Source of the DNA: Xenophilus azovorans DSM 13620 | Lineage (GTDB): Bacteria > Pseudomonadota > Gammaproteobacteria > Burkholderiales > Burkholderiaceae_C | Length of the DNA stretch: 64,000 nt | NCBI RefSeq assembly: GCF_000745855.1 | Contig: NZ_JQKD01000035.1 | Coordinates: 1-64,000 of the forward strand | Reading direction: 5' to 3' | Shown: positions 7,785 through 9,551 of the stretch, piece after piece | How positions within the stretch are numbered: the first letter of the stretch is position 1 | Layout of the letters: every line of letters starts with the position of its first letter | Position numbers and translations under genes: made by a program | Notes under the pieces: generated by a model | Told to the model about the DNA's origin: nothing | Databases searched by the model: none | Seen by the model: only the letters and a program-made list of their open reading frames with translations

Positions 7785-8213
7785 TCAGAAGGGCTTGACC
7801 ACCACCAGCACCACGATGCCCAGCAGCAGCAGCACCGGCAGTTCGTTGAACCAGCGGTACCAGCGGTGGCTGCGCCGGTCGGCGCCCTGCTCGAAGCGCC
7901 GCAGCAGCACCCCGCAGCCGTGGTGATAGCCCAGCACCAGCAGCACCAGCGCCAGCTTGGCATGCATCCATCCGCTGCCCGGACCGCGGCCGATGCCATA
8001 GCCCAGCCACAGCCACAGGCCGAAGCCCACCGCCGGCAGCGCCAGCAGGGTGGTGAAGCGCATCAGCTTGCGCGCCATCAGCAGCAGGCGCTGGCGCTCG
8101 GCCACCGATTCGGGCGGCACCATCGCCAGGTTGACGAAGATGCGCGGCAGGTAGAACAGGCCGGCGAACCAGCTCACCACGAAGACGATGTGGAAGGACT
8201 TGATCCAGAGCAT
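7785..8213 (-). CDS. hemJ: Protoporphyrinogen IX oxidase HemJ (UPF0093/CopD-like)
   Basis: Heme-biosynthesis membrane oxidase converting protoporphyrinogen IX to protoporphyrin IX. It has 142 residues, the normal HemJ length, starting MLWIKSFHIVFVVSWFAGL. The start at 8213 was preferred to a longer frame lacking family similarity. Conserved features are His8 in the first helix, the LPRIFV segment, and the HAKLALVLLVLGYHHG helix with conserved His and Lys; about four helices are seen. It lies across a short control region from hemB, another heme gene, which supports the call over a generic CopD protein. Confidence 0.85.
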   Translation of the reverse strand: MLWIKSFHIVFVVSWFAGLFYLPRIFVNLAMVPPESVAERQRLLLMARKLMRFTTLLALPAVGFGLWLWLGYGIGRGPGSGWMHAKLALVLLVLGYHHGCGVLLRRFEQGADRRSHRWYRWFNELPVLLLLGIVVLVVVKPF

Positions 8214-8277: not shown

Positions 8278-8310
8278 AAAAAAAAGCCCGGCGTTCTTGA
8301 ACGCCGGGCT
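8278..8310 (-). terminator. Intrinsic terminator of the candidate small RNA
   Basis: A perfect 12-bp stem (AGCCCGGCGTTC with its complement, 2-nt gap) at 8310-8285 is followed on the minus strand by eight uninterrupted U residues (8285-8278). No minus-strand protein gene ends just upstream, so the terminator needs another transcript to terminate. That is the main argument for an RNA gene here. On the plus strand the hairpin is not followed by a clean T-run. Confidence 0.85.
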
Positions 8311-8383
8311 GCGAAGCCCTTTTGCTGTCACACATCAAGGCACCCGCTCAGGGAGGAAAAGCGGGGGACGGCAAGCCGTCCGA
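8278..8383 (-). ncRNA. Candidate small RNA with anti-Shine-Dalgarno loop, between hemJ and hemB
   Basis: A free-standing transcription unit predicted on the minus strand. A promoter at 8417-8389 leads into about 105 nt ending at a strong intrinsic terminator (8310-8278). The RNA would fold into hairpin 1 (GGACGG/CCGTCC, 8381-8366), hairpin 2 (CCCGCT/AGCGGG) with a pyrimidine loop containing UUUUCCUCCC, a single-stranded linker, and the terminator. CCUCC is complementary to Shine-Dalgarno sequences, a hallmark of loop-acting riboregulators in alpha- and betaproteobacteria. No reading frame of note lies within it. Identity with a named Rfam family could not be checked. Confidence 0.7.
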
Positions 8384-8388
8384 GACAG

Positions 8389-8417
8389 AATTTAACAAAG
8401 GCGGCAAAGCCTATCAA
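8389..8417 (-). promoter_or_regulatory. sigma70-type promoter of the candidate small RNA
   Basis: On the minus strand, -35 TTGATA (8417-8412) and -10 TTAAAT or TAAATT (8395-8389) are spaced by 16 or 17 bp. A start around 8382 follows. The AT-rich -10 stands out in this GC-rich DNA. Confidence 0.65.
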
Positions 8418-8429
8418 GCACGGGGGTAA

Positions 8430-9551
<1,122 letters not shown>

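Follow-up and report, generated by a model that had tools for sequence, protein, structure and literature searches.

A small RNA of the anti-hemB family (RF02837) with an anti-Shine–Dalgarno loop between hemB and hemJ

The locus between hemB and hemJ

The window, that is, the whole 64-kb stretch of DNA analysed here, carries a gene for a small non-coding RNA on its minus strand, flanked by hemB on the opposite strand and followed on its own strand by a hemJ-like gene. The features of this locus are, from hemB to hemJ:

8547..9551, plus strand: hemB, divergent neighbour outside the RNA (porphobilinogen synthase NF006762, 506 bits; PF00490)
8534-8539, plus strand: -10-like box CACAAT of hemB, 7 nt before the ATG (14/15 genus members)
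8412..8417, minus strand: -35 box TTGATA (TTG kept in 15/15 genus genomes)
8389..8397, minus strand: extended -10, TGT TAAATT, with the hexamer TAAATT at 8394-8389 (TTGTTA(A/G)ATT kept in 15/15 genus genomes)
8278..8382, minus strand: anti-hemB (RF02837) small RNA of about 105 nt, its start predicted from the promoter
8278-8368, minus strand: Rfam match proper, within the predicted RNA (RF02837 covariance model)
8366..8381, minus strand: hairpin 1, GGACGG-CUUG-CCGUCC, outside the Rfam match (fold; double changes at two pairs in the genus)
8343..8365, minus strand: hairpin 2, CCCGCUU-UUCCUCCCU-GAGCGGG (Rfam alignment and fold)
8350..8356, minus strand: anti-Shine–Dalgarno loop CCUCCCU of hairpin 2
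8316..8341, minus strand: hairpin 3, GCCUUGAUGUGUGACAGCAAAAGGGC, with the stem GCCUU/AAGGGC (fold; invariant in 15/15 genus members)
8324..8333, minus strand: family-specific conserved element GUGUGACAGC, carried by hairpin 3
8278..8310, minus strand: intrinsic terminator with an 11-bp stem, a 4-nt loop and 8 U (sequence and fold)
8226-8221, minus strand: -10-like box TACACT of hemJ, 7 nt before the ATG (15/15 genus members)
7785..8213, minus strand: hemJ-like gene, downstream of the RNA (PF03653, 148.1 bits)

The hemJ-like gene scores 111.4 bits against TIGR00701 (HemJ), below the curated cut-off of 138.05. An earlier note on this DNA had proposed a non-coding RNA gene of about 105 nt on the minus strand, and the observation is confirmed: the RNA, 105 nt by prediction (8382-8278), has a strong terminator and an RF02837 match, and the coordinates and anatomy were right apart from a few corrections. 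The minus-strand promoter with its TTGATA box stands, but the second box, given as TTAAAT, was read one base off; the same box is TAAATT, 17 nt from TTGATA and directly preceded by TGT, as in an extended -10. The eight U of the terminator also stand, but its stem has 11 pairs around a 4-nt loop and not 12; a twelfth pair would shrink the loop to 2 nt. In place of two hairpins and a terminator, the predicted fold has three hairpins and a terminator, at -51.9 kcal/mol (z -4.28), and none of 200 shuffles was equally stable.

Assignment to a described family

The covariance search against Rfam that the earlier note had suggested covered the whole window and 4227 families, of which only RF02837 (anti-hemB) exceeded its cut-off. 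It reached 62.8 bits, where 49.5 are required, over model positions 1-81 and with an E value of 2.7e-12 for the whole 64-kb window. Alignment and fold show the CCCGC...CCUCCCUGAGCGGG hairpin of this family and a terminal hairpin with a U run, and the RNA is placed divergently from hemB, with 179 nt between the Rfam start and the hemB start. The window RNA is thus not new but belongs to an already described betaproteobacterial family. The idea of a small RNA with an anti-Shine–Dalgarno loop is supported, for a family that already has a name and a homologue that is expressed in Burkholderia cenocepacia.

That homologue, ncS04, is described as a 105-nt RNA with its 3' end mapped by RACE, a Northern blot and a minimum free energy of -52.7 (PMC5688073), and the B. 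cenocepacia RNA is listed as co-purifying with Hfq in Table 4 of PMC4603805. Anti-hemB is also listed for Burkholderia in PMC3521395, and a review names an Hfq-bound RNA Bc7 (PMC6321483). We take Bc7 and ncS04 to be one RNA because of the Rfam name 'Burkholderia RNA 7 (anti-hemB)' together with Table 4 of PMC4603805.

Distribution among genomes

RF02837 is found over cut-off in all 15 genomes of the window's genus, 95 of 120 genomes of its family and 190 of 300 genomes of its order. Wider draws gave 10/185 for the class, two of which come from the window's family, and 4/200 for the phylum, all four within the order. We gave most weight to these over-cut-off counts because 3 of the 14 control genomes also yield matches below the cut-off, though no control yields one above it. 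The window's genome has one copy over cut-off and two weak extra matches. One order genome has six matches (G234, L114), and arrays of 2 to 4 RNA copies, most of them under cut-off, lie in four genomes outside the order (L116-L119).

When named contigs were searched for the core pattern, at least 119 stretches matched, and the 80 titles listed are mostly Burkholderiales; among them are Comamonadaceae, Sphaerotilaceae and Burkholderiaceae, as well as MAGs labelled Gallionellaceae, Sulfurimicrobium, Proteobacteria and, once, Klebsiella. The MAG contig labelled Klebsiella pneumoniae (L175), on which the copy is of betaproteobacterial type and preceded by a sigma-E-like promoter, is probably mislabelled or part of a mixed bin. 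Two Pseudacidovorax records match two of the window's genus mates at 100% identity, over 1757 and 1883 nt, which puts Pseudacidovorax inside the window's genus as delimited here.

Conservation of the loop and hairpins

Conservation was judged on 161 loci from the upper end of the order and family score lists: 71 belong to the window's family, the window among them, and 90 to the rest of the order. These counts exclude additional copies (L106-L115), loci from beyond the order (L116-L125) and the weak matches in the window's own genome. The CCTCCC loop is kept in 160 of the 161, a figure that is partly built in because the homologue search model contains the loop and mostly best-scoring loci were read. 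The earlier note had held that a conserved hairpin 2 with compensatory changes would speak for the RNA. The outcome was positive, though thin for hairpin 2 itself: the loop is kept and one of the seven stem pairs goes from C-G to U-A in 32/71 family loci, but the other six pairs never vary. More support comes from hairpin 1 and the terminator.

Within the genus (15 sequences, 11 distinct), hairpins 2 and 3 are invariant, and the double changes lie in hairpin 1 and the terminator. Nine cells changed on both sides compared to a shuffle mean of 2.8, a count that none of 500 shuffles reached, and four pairs had changes on both sides (6/500 shuffles as high); 'further pair types' were not above shuffles in the genus (425/500 as high). 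A 5' hairpin of at least five pairs abutting the core occurs in 65/71 family loci compared to 111/355 shuffled ones, and in 86/90 other loci of the order compared to 103/450 shuffled.

Neighbouring genes and alternative roles

The RNA could regulate hemB, as the family name implies, or hemJ, by covering the region around the mRNA start. The arrangement is strikingly constant: of the 161 loci, 129 have a hemB that the search found, divergent from the RNA in every case (in the other 32 it was not found within the stretch examined), hemJ lies downstream on the same strand in 57/57 where it was found (of 101), and hemB is the published predicted target of Bc7 (PMC6321483). The duplex energies nevertheless do not support either gene as a Shine–Dalgarno target: when the loop was paired with positions -40..+15 of each gene, with 20 shuffles per locus, p≤0.05 was reached in 8% of family hemB starts (n=60), 10% of the other hemB starts (n=69) and 12% of hemJ starts (n=57); chance alone would give about 10%. 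An SD-like 4-mer is missing at 40/60 family hemB starts and at 54/57 hemJ starts, which leaves only 3/57 with one, and in the window GGAGG stands 21 nt before the hemB ATG, upstream of the gene's -10-like box. That box, CACAAT (ATTGTG on the opposite strand), is found at -13 or -12 in 19/60 family hemB starts, 18 of which have no SD. Across the genus, the boxes of both hemB and hemJ lie 6-7 nt from the ATG, the one deviating hemB box being GACAAT, and such a distance raises the possibility that both transcripts are leaderless or almost so. Leaderless mRNAs have no SD to cover. Because SD-like 4-mers are present at 33/69 hemB starts outside the family and at 17/32 in the family's CCTGC subgroup, hemB could still be hit there; at ten loci outside the order, however, neither hemB (within about 2 kb) nor hemJ was found. 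Neither hemB nor hemJ is likely to be an SD target, and we consider control of either neighbour by the RNA to be quite unlikely. The suggested link to heme or iron is not supported: besides the chance-level pairing and the scarcity of SD-like 4-mers, Table 2 of PMC5688073 gives no significant change of ncS04 in low iron or in six other tabulated conditions.

Since hemJ starts 65 nt beyond the RNA in the same orientation, the RNA could also be a 5' leader or attenuator of hemJ whose terminator gates read-through. We regard this as very improbable, given that the TACACT box is kept 6-7 nt before the hemJ ATG in 15/15 genus members, which suggests that hemJ has its own promoter, that hemJ was not found downstream in 44/101 loci (by tblastn, which may miss distant ones) and that ncS04 is reported as a discrete 105-nt RNA (PMC5688073). 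A different kind of role, as an RNA sponge or through GUGUGACAGC binding a protein or other RNAs, draws on the conservation of that element (as GUGA?UGACAGC) in 56/71 family loci and 15/15 genus members; it is absent from all 90 other loci of the order, and the part common to family and other loci alike is the CCUCCCUGAGC hairpin, so that we find this role unlikely.

Proposed mechanism and candidate targets

We therefore favour, with a probability of roughly 0.7, a free-standing RF02837 sRNA gene with a housekeeping extended -10 promoter and its own terminator, whose product most likely blocks Shine–Dalgarno sequences in trans, probably with Hfq. In such a scheme, the sRNA would be transcribed from the extended -10 promoter and end at its own terminator; it would then act in trans, probably together with Hfq, the exposed hairpin 2 loop UUCCUCCCU would pair with G-rich Shine–Dalgarno stretches of the AGGGAGGA type, and this pairing would block ribosome binding on a limited set of mRNAs. 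Anatomy, family membership and loop conservation come from the present analysis, and expression and Hfq co-purification from the B. cenocepacia papers (PMC5688073, PMC4603805); for the window's organism, we infer expression, Hfq involvement, pairing and targets.

The organism's own genome contains 11 sites of the form AGGGAGGA-N3..11-ATG and none of the reversed pattern, a difference that shows only that such SDs exist because the backward control is not matched to real SD frequency. Five of the 11 sites precede plausible ORFs, and six precede very short or doubtful ones. Candidate targets with AGGGAGGA-type leaders in this genome are a dihydropyrimidinase, a PQQ_2-domain protein, IHF alpha and a 142-residue protein with no Pfam match; a further candidate, a Peptidase_C39-domain protein, has the leader TCAGGGAGGAAA, a 12-nt perfect complement. 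A pattern search with the longer complement (13 sites in 21 genomes) gave no convincing conserved target. The sole gene that recurred at these sites encodes a transporter-like membrane protein in three sister species; we rejected it as a conserved target, as the match is found in 14/15 genus genomes and is missing from the window's own.

Promoter class across the family and order

To classify promoters we used a sigma-E-like expression (GGAAC-N15..20-TCnnA or nCTnA), a positional histogram and shuffle controls. In the 90-nt upstream stretches of loci outside the window's family, 66 of 71 GGAAC occurrences fall between -53 and -45 relative to the Rfam start, while 63/90 loci combine GGAAC with a fitting sigma-E-like -10, compared to 0.7 in shuffles; these shuffles take no account of shared ancestry, which inflates the counts, and the 90 loci are top scorers. 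In the window's family a sigma-E-like promoter was found in 0/71 loci, window included. The extended -10 expression TGnTAnnnT shows the opposite distribution, with 53/71 family loci compared to 4.5 in shuffles and 6/90 loci outside the family compared to 5.15, subject to the same inflation by ancestry. The window RNA lacks the promoter sequence of a sigma-E-dependent sRNA: no GGAAC-type -35 with a TCnnA- or nCTnA-type -10 precedes it.

Stricter expressions, applied to the 119 loci listed from the named scan, classed 8 as sigma-E-like, 34 as extended -10 and 77 as neither. Many of these 77 are Burkholderia- or Paraburkholderia-type loci with a TGGTATATCATA box, for which the stricter expression is too narrow, and we therefore relied on the looser one. 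Beyond the order, ten loci hand-picked from the class draw for score or tandem arrangement hold 16 copies, of which 8 fit a nearly identical sigma-E-like expression; seven of these eight are under the RF02837 cut-off, and only one of the six over-cut-off copies fits, which slightly lowered our estimate for the sigma-E ancestry proposed below. For comparison, the promoter boxes of RybB and MicA are given as GGAACTTTT and GTCAAA (PMC1804206).

An RpoE model scores over cut-off in 52/60 genomes of the order. The lowest over-cut-off scores belong to the two members of the window's family among them, the window's genome (G000, 250.6 bits) and a family mate (G049, 252.1 bits), and the others listed range from 262.4 to 338. 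The RpoE of the window's genome lies at G000:C19:47032-47598; the low scores of these two may be connected with the promoter change seen for the RNA. At Hydrogenophaga-type loci (L131, L147, L200, L222, L236), a palindrome TGTCA-N4-TGACA, possibly a regulator site, lies upstream of the RNA; it was not seen in the window.

The simplest history would place a sigma-E promoter at the root, with a later loss in the window's lineage. We tentatively suggest, at somewhat less than even odds, that the anti-hemB family is misnamed: judging by these promoter sequences, it may be an ancestrally sigma-E-driven, envelope-stress anti-SD sRNA akin to RybB and MicA, present in betaproteobacteria and other orders of the class, whose promoter was swapped for a housekeeping one in the window's lineage. 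If true, a stress-induced repressor became a constitutive one there, the promoter class changing while the presumed working loop stayed fixed. At the level of the family, the name anti-hemB would arguably point to the wrong target, and sigma-E would be a testable regulator for an sRNA whose role was not found in the literature searched; no report of a sigma-E promoter for an RF02837 RNA was found in the open-licence PMC literature searched. Taken alone, the locus is an unremarkable representative of a family already on record; what deserves following up is the possible sigma-E ancestry.

Comparison with known systems

Three other groups of small RNAs resemble the window RNA in part. The betaproteobacterial toxic small RNAs of RF02278 (the double-hairpin RNAs ncS03/05/27/62), of which ncS27 is reported to slow growth on overexpression (PMC5688073), are described with a similarly short, CU-rich unpaired anti-SD stretch and a strong terminator. 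Membership in RF02278 was rejected, the window scoring 23.7 bits where 50 are required; a separate RF02278 copy over cut-off (61.8 bits) lies elsewhere in the same genome (G000:C17:16702-16764). Xanthomonas sX13 is similar in that its C-rich apical loops mediate repression of mRNAs carrying G-rich motifs close to the start, but by its description it is set apart by having three C-rich loops and no need for Hfq (PMC3771888). With RybB and MicA, the enterobacterial sigma-E sRNAs, most of the homologues read outside the window's family have the sigma-E-like promoter in common, whereas the window copy is without it. Membership in RybB (RF00110) was likewise rejected, at 20.2 bits against 40 and over model positions 32-79 only, the terminator part.

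The closest counterpart is RF02837/ncS04/Bc7 itself, with which the window RNA shares a score over cut-off, the same hairpin and loop, the terminator and the divergent placement from hemB, and the predicted length of 105 nt equals that measured for ncS04. Compared to the Rfam consensus, the GUGUGACAGC-bearing hairpin 3 is longer in the window, and whereas the window promoter reads TTGATA/TGTTAAATT, that of the named Burkholderia and Paraburkholderia loci reads TGGTATAT(C/G)ATA.
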